From NCBI GenBank assembly GCA_903910705.1, contig CAIWAN010000049.1, positions 1 to 46,553 on the forward strand: DNA of 46,553 nt, written 5' to 3'. Position numbers and translations under genes: made by a program. This document shows positions 124 to 44,454 of the stretch, piece by piece (position 1 is the first letter of the stretch; each line of letters opens with the position of its first letter). The notes below the pieces were generated by a model. That model was not told the origin of the DNA. It did no database searches and saw only the letters and a list, made by a program, of their open reading frames with translations. Source of the stretch: an uncultured Candidatus Marinamargulisbacteria bacterium. GTDB lineage: Bacteria > Margulisbacteria > Riflemargulisbacteria > GWF2-35-9.

Positions 124-327
124 CTAAATTTTATGCGCCCGATGCGCAGATTTTCTTAGCCATGTGTCATCGATCTTGTCTACCAGAATAGCCAAGTCGA
201 TATCACTATCTGGGCGTTGGGTACCATTTGAATACGAACCGAAAAGAAACACCTCTTTCGGATGAATATAGTTTTCGATAAGCAGCTTGTACTTTCTTGC
301 AATGTCTATAATAGTTGCTTGATCCAC
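124..327 (-). pseudogene. Truncated MNT-type nucleotidyltransferase (HEPN partner)
   Basis: A 67-residue minimal nucleotidyltransferase of the MNT family. It has the GSYSNG...SDID signature: G30-S31, then the metal-binding pair D42 and D44. The protein stops soon after DxD, whereas the intact homologue at 36937-37239 is 100 residues and carries the later acidic strand (residues RIEPILLD) that usually supplies the third carboxylate. No continuation of that strand was found in any frame of the remaining minus-strand DNA down to base 1, so this copy is probably decayed. Its start overlaps the end of the upstream HEPN gene by 22 bases, as in the intact pair. In the family the MNT protein is an antitoxin that AMPylates or binds its HEPN partner; activity of this copy is doubtful. 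Confidence 0.6.
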
Positions 328-695
328 TGAAGCAGCTCCTTTGTTTCGTCAATCATTGTCCTGCACGTTTTCAGGTCAAGCGATTTGGCCAAAACATCTT
401 TTGTACTGGGATATCTTGCTTCAATATTGAGAGGGTTTAACCTGCTTAGCAACCCGGCATGATCGTCACTAAACTTTTCAAGCAGGCCTGCTTTTTCTGC
501 TAGATTTAACAGATTGTGTGTATACGGTGGAAATTCATCAGAAATTGAACAAATAGCAGCCTTTAGCGACTTCTCAATGACTTGTTGACACATAAACCCA
601 ACGTATAAATATCGGCGGCCATCCAACATCACGTTTGCTGTTTCGATGTCATAGTCGGCAAGATCTAACCAGTAACTTACTTTGGGATTGCTCAT
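306..695 (-). CDS. HEPN-domain protein (HEPN-MNT pair, copy 1)
   Basis: All-helical HEPN protein of about 129 residues. Shared with the copy at 36566-36958 are YW near the N-terminus, RYLYVGFMC, PPYTH and the block PLNIEARYPS; overall roughly half the residues match by eye. ATG at 695 is chosen; a GTG two codons upstream (701) is also possible. The downstream MNT gene starts inside its 3' end. HEPN proteins next to MNT proteins are often toxin RNases with an R-x4-6-H motif. I do not see that motif with correct spacing in either copy, so the RNase role is uncertain and this may belong to the non-catalytic HEPN group. The base composition is AT-richer than the housekeeping genes, in keeping with an accessory gene. 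Confidence 0.75.
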   Translation of the reverse strand: MSNPKVSYWLDLADYDIETANVMLDGRRYLYVGFMCQQVIEKSLKAAICSISDEFPPYTHNLLNLAEKAGLLEKFSDDHAGLLSRLNPLNIEARYPSTKDVLAKSLDLKTCRTMIDETKELLQWIKQLL

Positions 696-24127: not shown

Positions 24128-24316
24128 CTAGTTTAATAATTGGTCGATCGAATGAAACGTTGCCTTGCCTTGAGATTCTTTTTCCTCAAACTCATCGATA
24201 ATTTGATGGTCTGAAAAACAGTCCACGATGGTTTTCGAATAACCCTCTGCATCGAAAGAATCAATACTATCTAGTTTACTAGAAACAAACTTTTTGGAGA
24301 TTGCCATATAAAACAT
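24128..24316 (-). CDS. Small acidic protein of unknown function
   Basis: 62 residues, or 59 from the ATG at 24307. It is acidic, with the C-terminus EFEEKESQGKATFHSIDQLLN. This tail resembles the charged end of some type II antitoxins (a short helix, then a small polar residue and LDELL-like ending), but no DNA-binding motif and no toxin gene are visible beside it. It ends 9 bases before ilvD on the same strand. It is not rich in Val, Leu or Ile codons in a run, so it is not an attenuation leader. An orphan antitoxin remnant is one reading. Confidence 0.45.
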   Translation of the reverse strand: MFYMAISKKFVSSKLDSIDSFDAEGYSKTIVDCFSDHQIIDEFEEKESQGKATFHSIDQLLN

Positions 24317-24350
24317 AATAACATTTATATTTAGACTTTAAAATTTTTAT

Positions 24351-24854
24351 TCATCGAAAACCAATCTTTTTAGGTTCTTCAATAGGCGGCTCTAAAATCA
24401 TATTTACCGCAGAGATCAACATTTGGATATCCTCTTCAGACCTATTTTGACGAGACTCTAAGTCTTGAATTTTATGACGAAGTTTTTCATTATTCGCATA
24501 CAAGGCTCTTAACTTTCCGAACACCCTCATTATAGAAATATTAACTTGAAGGGCAATTTCACTTCTAAGAACCGATGACAACATAGCAATTCCGAATTCA
24601 GTAAACACAAGAGGTAATTTTCTGGTTCCGCCCCAACTTGAAGTTCCATTTTGGAACATCAAGTCAAACTCTTCTTTATTAAGTTGAAACATGAAATCAT
24701 TTGGGAAACGATCTAAGTTTCTACTGACGGCTTTATTAAGTATCTTGGTTTCGACCCCATACAAACTCGCTAGGTCGCGATCTAACATCACTTTCTGACC
24801 TCTAACAAATCGTATTTGAGACATAACTATCTCAATCGAGACAGGGATTTCCAT
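24351..24854 (-). CDS. ORF6N-domain DNA-binding protein
   Basis: 167 residues. The N-terminal ORF6N (KilA-N-like) domain is clear: IRFVRGQKVMLDRDLASLYGVETKILNKAV, given here from its first half RGQKVMLDRDLASLYGVE, then NLDRFPNDFMFQL and FTEFGIAMLSSVLRS. The C-terminus is a coiled coil (about 110-150). The domain is common in phage and mobile-element antirepressors and in chromosomal orphans. No phage genes flank it. It is AT-rich relative to the ilv and gcv genes, which suggests acquisition. Role unknown, probably gene control. Confidence 0.88.
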   Translation of the reverse strand: MEIPVSIEIVMSQIRFVRGQKVMLDRDLASLYGVETKILNKAVSRNLDRFPNDFMFQLNKEEFDLMFQNGTSSWGGTRKLPLVFTEFGIAMLSSVLRSEIALQVNISIMRVFGKLRALYANNEKLRHKIQDLESRQNRSEEDIQMLISAVNMILEPPIEEPKKIGFR

Positions 24855-24938
24855 ATCAAACTATTATTATTCAATTTAATGGTTAAGTCAATATATGAGA
24901 TATTTATTTTTCTGCGTCAACATTAAAGAGTAGCAAAA

Positions 24939-25511
24939 CTATTCCAATCCTGTCTGCAACTGCTTCGCGAGGGCTTCTTTGAACGTCATCGGGACGACCC
25001 CAAACACTTGGGTTTGTTGCAATAGGGCGAATTGTCCTTTTCGTTGAGCAGAGCCAATGAGTTTGTTACCCGTGGCATCGACGATCTCGTACTTAGCGGG
25101 GAAGTCGATACAGACCTCATGGTAGCGTTTGTCTTGATATTCCGGCAACGATTCTTGTCGAAGGAACGCCTCAACCCCAACAGCCGCAAGGGCAAAAACA
25201 ACTTTCTCGCTCAGCCATCGGTACGAGGCGACCAGTTGAGTCGAAGGCAAGAAACTTAAGGGGATGACCAAACTATACGTTATATCTCCCGGTTGATGAG
25301 CAACTCGTCCGCCCCCTGTTGGACGACGCACGCAAGCCCCCTCTTTAGGTGGCTTCTGGTTCAAGCCATAGGATATACAGGGTTCTGTCCAATCATAGAA
25401 ACGAATGAACGCGCGATCAGGACTCGCCTCCACTCGCTGCCAAAGCGCCACATCTTGCACCATATTAGTGATGGGGGCTTGGGCAACGTCACGAATGACG
25501 ATTAGTTCCAC
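24939..25511 (-). CDS. Lipoate-protein ligase/lipoyltransferase family protein
   Basis: 190 residues of the BPL/LplA/LipB fold. The lipoyl-binding motif RRPTGGGR is at residues 62-69 and the catalytic-type lysine is K150 in GNKLIGSAQRKG. The protein is shorter than LplA (about 330) and has no C-terminal accessory domain, so it may be an octanoyl or lipoyl transferase of the LipM/LipL type or need a partner for activation. It overlaps the end of the gcvP gene and is the last gene of the glycine cleavage operon, so its likely target is lysine 64 of the GcvH encoded here. Confidence 0.88.
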   Translation of the reverse strand: MELIVIRDVAQAPITNMVQDVALWQRVEASPDRAFIRFYDWTEPCISYGLNQKPPKEGACVRRPTGGGRVAHQPGDITYSLVIPLSFLPSTQLVASYRWLSEKVVFALAAVGVEAFLRQESLPEYQDKRYHEVCIDFPAKYEIVDATGNKLIGSAQRKGQFALLQQTQVFGVVPMTFKEALAKQLQTGLE

Positions 25512-34746: not shown

Positions 34747-35601
34747 ATGGAAAAATACATCGAAAAAGCAAAGACCCTTCTTGAGGCACTGCCTTACATT
34801 CAACAATTTTCTGGTAAAACCGTCGTTATAAAATACGGTGGCAGTGCAATGGAAGATGAAAAACTTAAGCGATCCGTCGCTACCGACATCGTTTTGTTGA
34901 AGTTTGTCGGCATCCACCCTGTCGTGGTTCATGGTGGCGGCATCGAGATCAACGATTGGCTCGAAAAACTCAATATCAAGAGCCACTTTATCGACGGTCA
35001 ACGCGTCACCACCCCTGAAGCGATGGATGTCATCGAAATGGTCTTAACTGGGCGGGTGAATAAAAGCCTTGTCAATCTAATCAATCAAGCGGGTGGCAAA
35101 GCAGTCGGGTTGAGCGGCAAAGACGCCAATCTTATTCTCGCAGAGCAACATCCAAATACAGCGCTTGGGCTCGTTGGCAAAGTTAAATCCATCAACCCAG
35201 ACATCATCAAACAGCTACTCGAAGACGGGTATATTCCGGTCATCTCGACGGTAGGGGTTGATGAAAAGGGTCAAGTCTATAACATCAATGCTGACGTGGC
35301 CGCCGGTGACATCGCCATTGCTCTTCAAGCCGAAAAACTCATCGCCCTCTCAAATGTTGCAGGCATTCTCGATAAAGACAAACAGCTCGTCAAGCAAGTC
35401 ACTTCACTCCAAATTCAAACCATGATCGAAAACGGAACCATAACCGGCGGCATGATCCCCAAAGTCGAATCGTTGCTTAGAGCGATTAATTCTGGTGTTC
35501 GAAATGTTCATGTGATCAGTGGCGAAAGTGAACACTCCATCTTACTCGAACTTTTCACCGATTTTGGTATTGGTACGATGATAAAGGCGGGATCATGGTA
35601 A
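34747..35601 (+). CDS. argB: Acetylglutamate kinase
   Basis: 284 residues from ATG 34747; GTG 34744 is equally placed relative to AAGGGG and would add one residue. It phosphorylates N-acetylglutamate, the second step of the cyclic arginine pathway. KYGGSAMEDEKLKRSVATDI, VVHGGG, GLSGKDANLI and GGMIPKVES are conserved. INADVAAGDIAIAL is the ATP-site block. The argF start lies within its last codons (7-base overlap). Confidence 0.96.
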   Translation: MEKYIEKAKTLLEALPYIQQFSGKTVVIKYGGSAMEDEKLKRSVATDIVLLKFVGIHPVVVHGGGIEINDWLEKLNIKSHFIDGQRVTTPEAMDVIEMVLTGRVNKSLVNLINQAGGKAVGLSGKDANLILAEQHPNTALGLVGKVKSINPDIIKQLLEDGYIPVISTVGVDEKGQVYNINADVAAGDIAIALQAEKLIALSNVAGILDKDKQLVKQVTSLQIQTMIENGTITGGMIPKVESLLRAINSGVRNVHVISGESEHSILLELFTDFGIGTMIKAGSW

Positions 35602-36509
35602 ACAAAGACTTTCTCAGCCTCGCCGGCTACACCAAGACGCAACTCGATCAGCTCATCAAAGAAGCTATTATCCTTAAAGCCGAACGGTCTGAGGGTCTTC
35701 TTCGCGACACCCTAAAAGGCAAGTCCATCGCTATGCTCTTTGAAAAACCATCCACTCGAACACTTGTCTCTTTTGACGTGGGGATCTACGAACTGGGGGG
35801 GCATACGGTCACCCTTCCCTCTAGTTCGCTTGGCGGACGAGAAGCATTTGAGGATATCGCCAACACTTTAAACCGTTATGTTAGCGGTATCATCATTCGA
35901 ACCTTCCATCAAGACAGTCTTGAGAAATTCTCGAAGGCAGCCAGCGTCCCTGTCATCAATGCACTTTCAGACAAGTTCCACCCCTGCCAAATTTTGGCAG
36001 ACTATCAAACCATCATCGAGCACAAAGGAAACGGGCATTTAAAGGTCGCCTACCTTGGAGATGGGTTCAATATCGCCAATACGCTCCTTCAACTTTGCAG
36101 TATCGTCGGCTACGACCTCTACATCGCAACGCCGGTTGGTTACGAACCGCATAAAGATCATGTCGAAGCGGCCAAAGTCACCGCTCGAAAAACAGGCTCA
36201 AAAATCGTCATCTCGAACAACCCTTACGAGGCGGTTCAAGGTGCCGACATTATCTATACTGACACCTGGACCTCGATGGGGTTAGAAGAAGAGTCTCATA
36301 TTCGCATTCCGTTGTTCCAACACTATCAAGTGAACGCCCACCTACTTGTCGAAGCCAAACCCGGCGCCAAGGTTATGCATTGCTTACCGGCCCATCGTGG
36401 ACAAGAGATCACCAACGAGGTAATCGACGGCCCCCAATCCATCGTCTTCGACCAAGCCGAAAACCGACTCCATGCCCAGAAAGCGATCCTGCTCAGTTTG
36501 TTTAGGTAA
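35595..36509 (+). CDS. argF: Ornithine carbamoyltransferase
   Basis: 304 residues. It makes citrulline from ornithine and carbamoyl phosphate. The carbamoyl-phosphate site STRT is at 53-56, HPCQILADYQT is present, ornithine-site residues lie in TDTWTSMG, and HCLPAHRGQEIT is near the C-terminus. The last codons and stop form the left copy of a 16-base direct repeat that recurs at 37272-37287 beyond the HEPN-MNT genes. No other arg gene is in the window. Confidence 0.96.
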   Translation: MVNKDFLSLAGYTKTQLDQLIKEAIILKAERSEGLLRDTLKGKSIAMLFEKPSTRTLVSFDVGIYELGGHTVTLPSSSLGGREAFEDIANTLNRYVSGIIIRTFHQDSLEKFSKAASVPVINALSDKFHPCQILADYQTIIEHKGNGHLKVAYLGDGFNIANTLLQLCSIVGYDLYIATPVGYEPHKDHVEAAKVTARKTGSKIVISNNPYEAVQGADIIYTDTWTSMGLEEESHIRIPLFQHYQVNAHLLVEAKPGAKVMHCLPAHRGQEITNEVIDGPQSIVFDQAENRLHAQKAILLSLFR

Positions 36510-36510
36510 A
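36495..36510. repeat. 16-base direct repeat, left copy (argF 3' end)
   Basis: CAGTTTGTTTAGGTAA, including the argF stop codon. An identical copy is at 37272-37287, just beyond the HEPN-MNT pair. It is likely an insertion-site duplication or att-like sequence. Confidence 0.8.
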
Positions 36511-36553
36511 CTGAGACACGGTTCGTTCCCTATAAACTTATCTCAATAAATGG

Positions 36554-36559
36554 TAAGAT
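36554..36559 (+). promoter_or_regulatory. Extended -10 box of the HEPN-MNT pair
   Basis: TGG then TAAGAT, 6 bases before ATG 36566, with no ribosome site. A leaderless message is likely. Confidence 0.45.
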
Positions 36560-36565
36560 TGGCTT

Positions 36566-36958
36566 ATGGGAACAGAAGAAAAGATTACCTATTGGCTTGA
36601 AGTTTCAGTCTACGACATTGATACTGCTAAGGCTATGCTGGATACTGGCCGATACCTGTATGTTGGATTTATGTGTCATCAAGCAGTTGAGAAGATTCTC
36701 AAAGCCTTGTTTGTTCGCAACAATACCGAAGTCCCACCGTATACACATAGTTTACTCAAACTTGCAAAGGGAGCTGGATGTTATACTGATTTATCGGAAA
36801 CTCAAAAAGACTTACTTGACCAGCTTGACCCGCTGAACATTGAAGCAAGATATCCCAGTTATAAAGAGCAATTACTTAAGCAGTTAAGTAAGTCAATTTG
36901 TACAAAGATGTTTTCTGAAACAAAGGAGTTCACTGAATGGATCAGCAAGAAGTTATAG
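36566..36958 (+). CDS. HEPN-domain protein (HEPN-MNT pair, copy 2)
   Basis: 130 residues, intact partner of the MNT protein that follows. Conserved with copy 1 (306-695): YWLE, RYLYVGFMCHQAVEK, PPYTHSLLKLA, PLNIEARYPSYKE. HEPN-MNT pairs act as toxin-antitoxin or phage-defence modules in which the MNT enzyme silences the HEPN RNase. The standard R-x4-6-H is not seen (only R..x8..H), so the mode of action is open. The pair lies between two copies of a 16-base direct repeat, and its AT content is higher than that of argF. Confidence 0.85.
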   Translation: MGTEEKITYWLEVSVYDIDTAKAMLDTGRYLYVGFMCHQAVEKILKALFVRNNTEVPPYTHSLLKLAKGAGCYTDLSETQKDLLDQLDPLNIEARYPSYKEQLLKQLSKSICTKMFSETKEFTEWISKKL

Positions 36959-37239
36959 AAAAGCTTAAACTTTATAATCGACTTGTCCAGAATCTCATTA
37001 ACCCGAGTCAATTATTTTTATACGGTTCGTATGCCAAGGGCACAAATCGACCTGACAGCGATATCGATGTTGCGGTTATCGTTGACCACTTTGATGGAAA
37101 TATTCTTAAAACATTAACCGCTCTATATAAGCTTCGCAGACAAATCGATGATCGTATCGAGCCAATTCTACTCGATATTCACAGTGATCCTAGTGGGTTT
37201 GCCGAGGATATAATGGCTCATGGCAAAGTTGTTGCCTAA
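36937..37239 (+). CDS. MNT-type minimal nucleotidyltransferase
   Basis: 100 residues, full length. GSYAKGTNRPDSDIDVAVIV carries the GS...DxD signature, and the later strand RIEPILLD provides the third acidic residue. It overlaps the HEPN gene by 22 bases, exactly as in copy 1. In characterised pairs this protein transfers AMP to the HEPN partner and blocks it. The same order and overlap in two loci show a conserved translational coupling. Confidence 0.9.
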   Translation: MDQQEVIEKLKLYNRLVQNLINPSQLFLYGSYAKGTNRPDSDIDVAVIVDHFDGNILKTLTALYKLRRQIDDRIEPILLDIHSDPSGFAEDIMAHGKVVA

Positions 37240-37271
37240 CCCTACTCTGCCGTTAACGTTCAATATTTAAC

Positions 37272-37287
37272 CAGTTTGTTTAGGTAA
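37272..37287. repeat. 16-base direct repeat, right copy
   Basis: CAGTTTGTTTAGGTAA, identical to the argF end at 36495-36510. It overlaps the end of the vapC gene (stop at 37280-37282 on the minus strand), so vapC lay directly beside argF before the HEPN-MNT segment came in. Confidence 0.8.
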
Positions 37288-37654
37288 TCGGGATATATTT
37301 TACGCCTGATAATCCTGAAAAATGAGCATCTTGTGTCCAAATGGTCGCGCTATGCACGTAGCCCGTAGCAAGTACAATGCTATCAGCCATGGGTAATTTA
37401 TCTTTTATGCTCAGCTCGGCAGCATATAAGGCAATCTGACTCGTCGCATCAACAACATGCCCTTGTTGCATTTGGGCACAAACCGTTGCTGCAAGTTCAT
37501 CCCCTCTTTCAAGATAGATCTTTTTATAAACTTCATACAGACAAAGGGTGGGGACGATCAGATTTTGAGTATCAAGAATAATCGGTTCAAAAAAAGATGC
37601 ATTCTTGGCGTTTGCAAAGTATTCGATCCATCCACATGAATCGACCAGATTCAT
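37280..37654 (-). CDS. vapC: PIN-domain toxin, VapC family
   Basis: 124 residues. PIN ribonuclease with acidic metal ligands D5 (NLVDSCGW), E41 (LYEVYKK), D91 (MADSIVLA) and D109 (TQDAHF). VapC toxins cut tRNA or rRNA. The antitoxin gene overlaps it by 4 bases upstream. The last codons fall in the 16-base direct repeat. Confidence 0.92.
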   Translation of the reverse strand: MNLVDSCGWIEYFANAKNASFFEPIILDTQNLIVPTLCLYEVYKKIYLERGDELAATVCAQMQQGHVVDATSQIALYAAELSIKDKLPMADSIVLATGYVHSATIWTQDAHFSGLSGVKYIPIT

Positions 37655-37848
37655 AACCGATCTTCATCTCGACTTAGCGAGGTATCCATACCCGACAAAA
37701 CACCCTTCATTTCGGCCAAATTTCGTTCGGGAACAAGCTCAATTCGCCCCGGAAGTGCCAACATGATCAGCCGCTCCCCTACTTTTAGATTAAGCGAGTC
37801 CCGCAGCAATTTGGGAATCGAGATCTGATATTTGGATGAGAGCTTCAC
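37651..37848 (-). CDS. vapB: AbrB/SpoVT-type antitoxin, VapB family
   Basis: 65 residues from a GTG start at 37848. The swapped-hairpin domain is clear: KLSSKYQISIPKLLRDSLNLK, given from its first part SSKYQISIPKLLRDSLNL, then VGERLIML. The tail binds the VapC toxin encoded next. An AAGGAG element lies about 15 bases upstream, rather far for ideal spacing, and TATAAT lies further upstream. It should repress its own operon. Confidence 0.9.
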   Translation of the reverse strand: MKLSSKYQISIPKLLRDSLNLKVGERLIMLALPGRIELVPERNLAEMKGVLSGMDTSLSRDEDRL

Positions 37849-43484: not shown

Positions 43485-43567
43485 CCACCAATAACATAAA
43501 TTACCCGACTAAGTTCCACTGTCAAATGGACACCCCAAAAAAGAAACACAATTTTGCGATGCGTCAT

Positions 43568-43585
43568 TTTCACCTTTGGGTGAAA
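43568..43585. promoter_or_regulatory. Inverted repeat in the gap between the RND operon and the unknown gene
   Basis: TTTCACC-TTTG-GGTGAAA, a 7-base perfect stem. It lies 65 bases before the start at 43650. It may be an operator or a weak terminator; nothing decides between them. Confidence 0.4.
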
Positions 43586-43649
43586 TTATTGCTTTTCGGT
43601 TTCGATAATTTCTTTGGAAGTAAAAAAAATCGAAAACAAGGAGACGATC

Positions 43650-44399
43650 ATGGTCAATCATAAAGTGGTTAGTTTAGAGAGCAAAACAGATAACGGGTCT
43701 GTTCGTATTGTAGAAATCATAAAACAGCTCATGGAATCTACCGAATGGACAGGAGCTAAAGCTGCTTTTGACGCTGTCGGAAAAGAAGGCTCGTTGGGCC
43801 TTATTACGGCTCTAGCAAAAAAATCTCTGTCAGACACAACTAGACTAATTAACAAGTTATCCGACTTCTTTGCAGAAAAGCAATTACATGAAGCCCAATT
43901 GTATAGAGCTTTAGGAAAAGGAATACAGAAACATTCAAAAGACCCCTCAGTCATTTTCACAGCATTAACACATGCTCAAATCCATGAGAGTGGCAGTCAA
44001 ATATTTCAGGCCATCTTCGAGGCTTCCGGCGCTGAAATTCAGGAAATAATTTTAGATAGTCTACGCAGCATAAGAAAAGTATTTACGGAGCATAAAGCTC
44101 CGTTTGTCGATAATACAAAGATCTTTTCCATGGCATTAAGTAAAGCTGCGGCAGTGTACGCCCTATTTTCCGAAGAGTGGAATATAGTTTATGCGCCCTT
44201 AAGTCTTAGCAACGCTGGCAACGGTTCTGACAATAACAAGGAGGAAGCTACTGCTGCTGTACAAGCCGCGTTAAAATTAATTAAACCATTCATTCCCGAT
44301 ATGACGGAAATATCAAAGGGTGAATTAAGGGGGCGCATGGCCGATAATTTTACATTCAAGAATTATCTTGATTTGTTTGACGAAGCTGTCGGGGGTTAA
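43650..44399 (+). CDS. Unknown all-helical protein
   Basis: 249 residues from ATG 43650, which has AAGGAG at 43638-43643; an earlier start at 43614 would overlap that site. The protein is almost entirely amphipathic helix (IVEIIKQLMES, LGLITALAKKSL, TRLINKLSDFF, IFQAIFEASGAEIQEI), with no signal peptide, membrane helix or recognised domain. A Gly/Asn-rich loop lies near 200. It is AT-rich relative to its neighbours. It stands alone between a divergent efflux operon and the GlmU-like gene. Function unknown. Confidence 0.65.
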   Translation: MVNHKVVSLESKTDNGSVRIVEIIKQLMESTEWTGAKAAFDAVGKEGSLGLITALAKKSLSDTTRLINKLSDFFAEKQLHEAQLYRALGKGIQKHSKDPSVIFTALTHAQIHESGSQIFQAIFEASGAEIQEIILDSLRSIRKVFTEHKAPFVDNTKIFSMALSKAAAVYALFSEEWNIVYAPLSLSNAGNGSDNNKEEATAAVQAALKLIKPFIPDMTEISKGELRGRMADNFTFKNYLDLFDEAVGG

Positions 44400-44454
44400 T
44401 CCTTAAATAACGACTGGAACAAATACCGACATCGAGGGATAATGCCCGTTAATC

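Follow-up and report, generated by a model that had tools for sequence, protein, structure and literature searches.

In the DNA of an uncultured lake bacterium (Candidatus Marinamargulisbacteria), a two-gene HEPN-MNT module lies between argF and vapC, bracketed by two copies of a 16-bp sequence of which a congeneric genome carries one copy at an empty junction. We consider it probable that the module entered this junction by illegitimate insertion with target duplication of variable length and that it was retained by selection. Insertions with target duplication recur in the lineage, and the argF event is one among many, in which single-operon accessory modules, mostly toxin-antitoxin, were inserted with duplications of 12-117 bp. 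Coordinates refer to the window, i.e. the whole analysed stretch of 46,553 nucleotides.

The argF-vapC junction in occupied and empty form

The exact 16-mer CAGTTTGTTTAGGTAA is present in the window at 36494-36509 and again at 37272-37287, the copies being 778 bp apart with 762 bp between them. The left copy consists of the last codons of argF with its stop TAA (36507-36509), the right copy includes the stop codon of the convergent vapC, and both genes are whole in the window. The sequence-only reading had described a perfect repeat over the argF stop codon that overlaps the end of vapC, which was correct, except that it began the repeat at 36495 and not at 36494. It had also held a chance match of this length to be very unlikely, and the comparison bears this out, as random pairs of 206-bp stretches from the window shared at most 13 bp (mean 7.7) vs the 16 bp observed. 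The 16-mer is not a common dispersed repeat, since its own 2.2-Mb genome (G000) contains no further exact copy and the next best match carries 2 mismatches. Among the window ORFs none inside the insert encodes an integrase or transposase, as that reading had noted. Features of the region are listed in Table 1.

Table 1. Features of the occupied argF-vapC region, in window coordinates
Feature	Position	Strand	Basis and remarks
argF (ornithine carbamoyltransferase), target gene	35595..36509	+	PF02729/PF00185, ORF; G001 orthologue 92% aa; last 16 bp including stop duplicated
Left target-duplication copy	36494..36509	+	Exact match; single copy in G001
12-bp junction filler, left copy to mobile unit	36510..36521	+	Absent from G001 module copy
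Conserved mobile unit of ~719 bp (short upstream region, HEPN, MNT)	36522..37240	+	90-93% identical to copy elsewhere in G001
HEPN-domain protein, 130 aa, HEPN-T type	36566..36958	+	PF05168, E 1.4e-24
MNT (minimal nucleotidyltransferase), 100 aa, motif GSYAKGTNRPDSDID	36937..37239	+	PF18765/PF01909; homology to MntA structures 5yep/6m6u; start overlaps HEPN gene
31-bp junction filler, mobile unit to right copy	37241..37271	+	Absent from G001 module copy
Right target-duplication copy	37272..37287	+	Contains vapC stop codon 37280-37282, minus strand
vapC-like PIN toxin gene	37280..37654	-	PF01850; 3' end overlaps argF 3' end in empty site
MazE/AbrB-type antitoxin, partner of PIN gene	37651..37848	-	PF04014

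An empty argF-vapC junction with a single 16-mer, which the sequence-only reading had proposed to seek in a relative, was found in the congeneric Marinamargulisbacteria genome G001. There argF is joined directly to vapC, the gene ends overlap, and the junction reads ...AGTTTGTTTAAGTAGTTGAGATAT... with one copy of the site. The window aligns to it without a gap up to the end of argF and the alignment resumes at the repeat, the 762 bp between the copies being missing from G001. Flanks on both sides are 82-87% identical between the two genomes. The module had thus been rightly read as having entered between argF and vapC with duplication of the site. Both genomes are metagenome-assembled (MAGs), G000 being 97.7% complete.

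The module has other homes. Its G001 orthologue, in which the HEPN gene is damaged, lies at a different locus (contig C118) with 90-93% DNA identity (about 91%) over 36522-37240. The unit common to the two genomes (~719 bp) begins 44 bp ahead of the HEPN start and ends shortly after the MNT stop, and the 12 left and 31 right bases of the window insert fall outside it. The left filler starts with ACTGAG, the reverse complement of a nearby CTCAGT, the inverted match being weak. A HEPN protein of 74% identity occurs in a third genomic setting, in a genome of another family (G006). Since the common unit lacks the argF gene-end sequence, the repeat derives from the target. Copies of this module that lack a second repeat copy sit at other insertion sites, not at argF. 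The flanks of the C118 locus had no match in G000, so a reciprocal empty site was not found there.

The 16-bp repeat covers the stretch in which argF and vapC overlap; without duplication of that stretch, an insertion there would disrupt at least one of the two genes. We propose that a segment whose HEPN-MNT operon is self-contained entered where the 3' ends of the two convergent genes overlap, and that 16 bp of target were copied such that each gene retained an intact end. The direction of change at argF, insertion in G000 vs loss in G001, we infer from comparison with one congeneric genome; precise excision in G001 via the 16-bp repeat gives the same picture, yet presupposes an earlier insertion.

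The two genomes differ at further points along the window. About 750 bp at 24204-24953, with a 167-aa gene that is ORF6N-domain-like by eye, are replaced by 44 bp in G001, and ~870 bp at 43531-44404, with a 261-aa gene of unknown kind, correspond to ~98 bp there. Conversely, 397 bp of G001 (L005:467-863) with broken reading frames, between an antitoxin gene and an RND transporter gene, are absent from the window.

The HEPN-MNT pair as a putative toxin-antitoxin system

HEPN and MNT domains are encoded in one operon at this site, and the pair is, judged by its sequences, homologous to known type VII systems. Type VII HEPN/MNT (HepT/MntA) systems (PMC7641770, PMC11586414) likewise form a two-gene HEPN plus MNT operon, and the MNT protein described here matches MntA structures by sequence and possesses a catalytic motif of GSX10DXD type. 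It differs from them in that the HEPN protein belongs to PF05168 (HEPN-T), without the canonical Rx4-6H, and in its gene order, with HEPN ahead of MNT, where the MNT gene usually leads (PMC3710099). Alignment of eight relatives revealed no Rx4-6H RNase motif in the HEPN protein but a near-invariant RYP without a following H, and an invariant H61 elsewhere. A comparable motif state is described for PF05168 members in the same source (PMC3710099). Because Rx4-6H is absent and the invariant histidine lies elsewhere, RNase toxicity of the HEPN protein is not established, and an addictive function of the module is presumed.

A second HEPN-MNT pair is located on the minus strand at window 154-689, near the contig edge, its HEPN being 52% identical to the first and its MNT match partial. 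A 35-bp exact C-rich repeat, probably a dispersed one, occurs at 739-773 and 1411-1445 beside a RelE-like ORF pair (1481-1985).

Bracketed modules elsewhere in the lineage

Exact direct repeats were scanned over 735 kb of G000 and 612 kb of G001, and the genome-wide rates refer to these parts. Repeats of 20-120 bp with a spacing of 400-2600 bp occurred at 23.1 (G000) and 22.9 (G001) per Mb, vs 1.4 and 1.6 per Mb, respectively, at a spacing of 2600-4800 bp. The density at short spacing was ~14-17-fold higher in both genomes, whereas unrelated control contigs gave 5.2 at short vs 7.7 at long spacing. The bracketed stretches often correspond to one small operon, mostly toxin-antitoxin or AAA-ATPase. 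Their Pfam cargo includes HEPN/MNT, AbiEii, BrnT/CopG, ParE/RelB, PIN, Fic and DUF4160/DUF2442, as well as DUF4143-AAA ATPases, DUF3800, AlbA_2 and DUF1697/DUF1801. The process is genome-wide, not confined to HEPN-MNT and variable in duplication length, which extends what had been read from the window.

For further counts we used a set of 23 duplications, from which paralogous repeats, a tRNA end with a transposase fragment and retroelements had been left out. Duplication lengths in this set were continuous from 12 to 117 bp, the 16 bp at argF being at the short end, and the sequence was different at each site. A gene 3' end fell inside 9 of the 23 in the two main genomes, vs 5.3% expected from random windows. 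Inserts measured 443-1894 bp and were mostly of lower G+C than their flanks. No terminal inverted repeats or conserved end columns were found among them, and module edges may fall inside cargo ORFs (L064, L307).

HEPN-MNT pairs with flanking duplications, which the sequence-only reading had suggested searching for, are present in the same genome and in the phylum, with different repeats. G000 has 13 HEPN and 13 MNT matches, and other repeats bracket such modules at an lptG-like gene end (117 bp), at L061 (28 bp) and at L064 (26 bp, in three copies around two modules). Arrays with the target sequence in three copies around two different modules were observed at L060:6375-8292, L064:9567-10910 and L061:140-1675, which means that insertion recurred at one spot. 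In L064, successive proteins end in KRRGQGW, a C-terminus that the repeat encodes.

Empty alleles were found for other insertions, in both directions. In the lptG-like gene of G000 an MNT-HEPN module lies between two copies of ~113-117 bp where G001 has one, and the right copy runs into the same downstream sequence as in G001. The two copies show 4 differences over 117 bp vs about 16% between the genomes, which suggests that this insertion is younger than the G000/G001 split. Conversely, at a 475-aa gene of G001 a VapBC-type module lies between two ~68 bp copies of the gene end, and G000 has the empty form. An insert of BrnTA plus AAA ATPase in G000 is flanked by a 12-bp duplication that is single in G001. 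At some inserts of like cargo 17-46 bp of target are missing instead, which means that an insertion need not come with a duplication.

In other Margulisbacteria families, three HEPN loci had clear bracketing repeats (ilvB-, mutS-, asd- and lptG-like being our own reading of the protein sequences). The duplicated stretch comes from the start of an ilvB-like gene at L307 (26 bp), where the HEPN protein opens with that gene's first codons, from the start of a mutS-like gene at L314 (43 bp), and from the 3' region of an asd-like gene at L298 (51 bp). Judging from L307 and L314, a gene can be struck at its 5' end just as at its 3' end. What these insertions have in common is an undamaged gene, and this points to selection among insertions, not to a recognised site. 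The L307 protein is a hybrid HEPN made by insertion, with its start (L307:1480-1505) duplicated from the adjoining acetolactate synthase-like gene.

Duplicated tRNA 3' ends were observed in G001 at L207:1457-1509/2558-2610 (53 bp) and L180:5589-5609/6915-6935 (21 bp); the L207 repeat brackets an ISL3-type transposase fragment. An Rfam scan of six loci returned tRNAs and no other known RNA elements.

Routes of insertion and known systems

An artefact of assembly or a chance match is hardly credible as the source of these repeats. The contigs are from MAGs, which would allow it, whereas the 16-bp match is far beyond random pairs and unique in its genome, and the empty sites found in two assemblies and in both directions already contradict it. 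A tyrosine (site-specific) recombinase acting in trans, which would integrate circular modules at gene ends and leave the repeats as attL/attR cores, is unlikely. It would account for the frequent location of repeats at gene 3' ends, which they restore as phage or island att sites do, for the two duplicated tRNA ends (L207, L180) and for the three-copy arrays (L064, L060, L061). Against it, the repeat differs in sequence at every site and in length from 12 to 117 bp, the ilvB- and mutS-like genes were struck at the 5' end, and the HEPN-MNT unit is common with G001 without an argF-derived core. The genome has only three tyrosine recombinases (PF00589; one XerC/D-like, one beside a primase and one of 484 aa), none adjoining the modules studied. 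Integrative elements whose att repeats lie in the 3' ends of genes or tRNAs likewise restore the target, but the repeat here has a different sequence each time and some targets are 5' ends; among the insert ORFs at argF-vapC and the recombinases of the genome no integrase gene was found in or beside the element. Integron gene cassettes are likewise small single-operon toxin-antitoxin modules, sometimes in tandem, whereas the modules here share no attC-like element and are scattered among core genes; none of the three PF00589 matches is an evident integron integrase, being judged XerC/D-like or phage-type by size and neighbourhood.

A transposase or Cas1-type integrase in trans, making unusually long staggered cuts, is very improbable. 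The true target duplication at empty sites agrees with such a reaction, whereas duplication length is not constant, inverted repeats and conserved end columns are wanting as they would not be in a transposon or insertion sequence, edges may cut into cargo ORFs, and independent insertions of one cargo have different ends so far. The sole cas1 adjoins cas2-like and cas6-like ORFs and a repeat array of 75-bp period and looks like ordinary CRISPR adaptation; a casposon (Cas1 outside CRISPR-cas) was rejected on this basis. Variable length, site-specific sequences, missing inverted repeats and conserved ends, and edges within cargo ORFs argue strongly against a defined-end transposon or a fixed-core integrase. 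Target-primed reverse transcription, with a reverse transcriptase inserting the operon from an RNA copy, is expected to give variable target duplications with occasional target loss. The observed duplications fit this pattern, module edges are tight around one operon and the genome encodes RT+bAvd pairs, but these RTs belong to apparently ordinary diversity-generating retroelements with template/variable repeats (L129), and the ~44 bp ahead of the HEPN gene, also conserved in G001, would need to be transcribed; we regard this route as highly improbable. The RT and bAvd genes lie at L129:837-2486 and L065:4504-6526 (G000 contigs C21 and C39), and L129 has a 108-bp repeat pair with 21 differences, template/variable-repeat-like, in keeping with diversity-generating retroelements. 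Direct repeats around these genes had been candidates for modules and were removed.

Other candidates were tried and set aside. Ku-type end joining was rejected, as no Ku (PF02735) was found in G000 or G001. A phage or plasmid vector was not supported, as viral contigs gave no HEPN relative and the one match, of 53%, was in a Bacteroides plasmid. The 16-mer occurs in 47 viral contigs, once each, which is near chance for that much DNA by our estimate, so it was rejected as an element end.

With no defined ends or core, no recombinase beside the modules studied, an ordinary-looking cas1, no Ku and ComEC present, an end-non-specific insertion is favoured. ComEC is encoded in both genomes, which would make DNA uptake possible. 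Biochemically, we infer an end-non-specific, illegitimate insertion without a transposase or integrase reaction: replication may have switched templates, or a break with widely staggered ends may have been filled in while DNA was taken up or repaired. No clear microhomology or hairpins, the signature of template switching, were seen at the junctions; inverted matches at left junctions showed a weak excess (mean 4.83 vs 4.35), in one of four tests and with left and right arbitrary, and we place no weight on it. Retention would be by selection, the duplication rescuing the struck gene and the cargo being costly to lose.

The nearest known process is insertion with long target duplication (ILTD), described for restriction-modification genes of Helicobacter pylori (Nobusato et al. 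2000, Gene 259:99, as related in PMC3031569, PMC1643837 and PMC3874152). According to these papers, ILTD was found from two H. pylori genomes and tied to restriction-modification mobility without a mobile element, and the duplication is of the order of 100 bp (PMC3874152). Both cases were seen by comparing two related genomes, involve an accessory, potentially addictive module without its own mobility gene, and duplicate the target over a long, variable stretch. The ILTD allele pattern, with the target once in the empty and twice in the occupied form, holds at argF, lptG, the 475-aa gene and the 12-bp case. Here, in contrast, the cargo is mainly toxin-antitoxin and AAA-ATPase instead of restriction-modification, lengths are continuous from 12 to 117 bp, each genome has dozens of candidate cases, three-copy arrays arise where insertion was repeated at the same spot, and the phylum is another. 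We read the insertions as an ILTD-type process that moves toxin-antitoxin modules and extends to a new phylum, of which the mechanism would be as proposed above. A full-text search combining both terms led to papers citing the H. pylori findings, in whose consulted passages ILTD with toxin-antitoxin cargo was not reported.

How chromosomal toxin-antitoxin modules enter genomes without a nearby mobile element has long been asked. At the present loci, occupied and empty sites align base by base, in both directions, and many more candidates are available per genome. A dedicated in-trans machine in Marinamargulisbacteria, perhaps in other lineages, that moves bare single-operon toxin-antitoxin modules with variable duplications while choosing or tolerating gene ends is doubtful; if true, it would be a mobility route for genes without any mobility functions. 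ILTD, described mainly for H. pylori restriction-modification genes, becomes testable on cargo that need not cut DNA, and this speaks against restriction cleavage as the driver of the process. For the organism, the duplication explains how insertions are tolerated in tightly packed or important genes such as argF and the lptG-, ilvB-, mutS- and asd-like genes.
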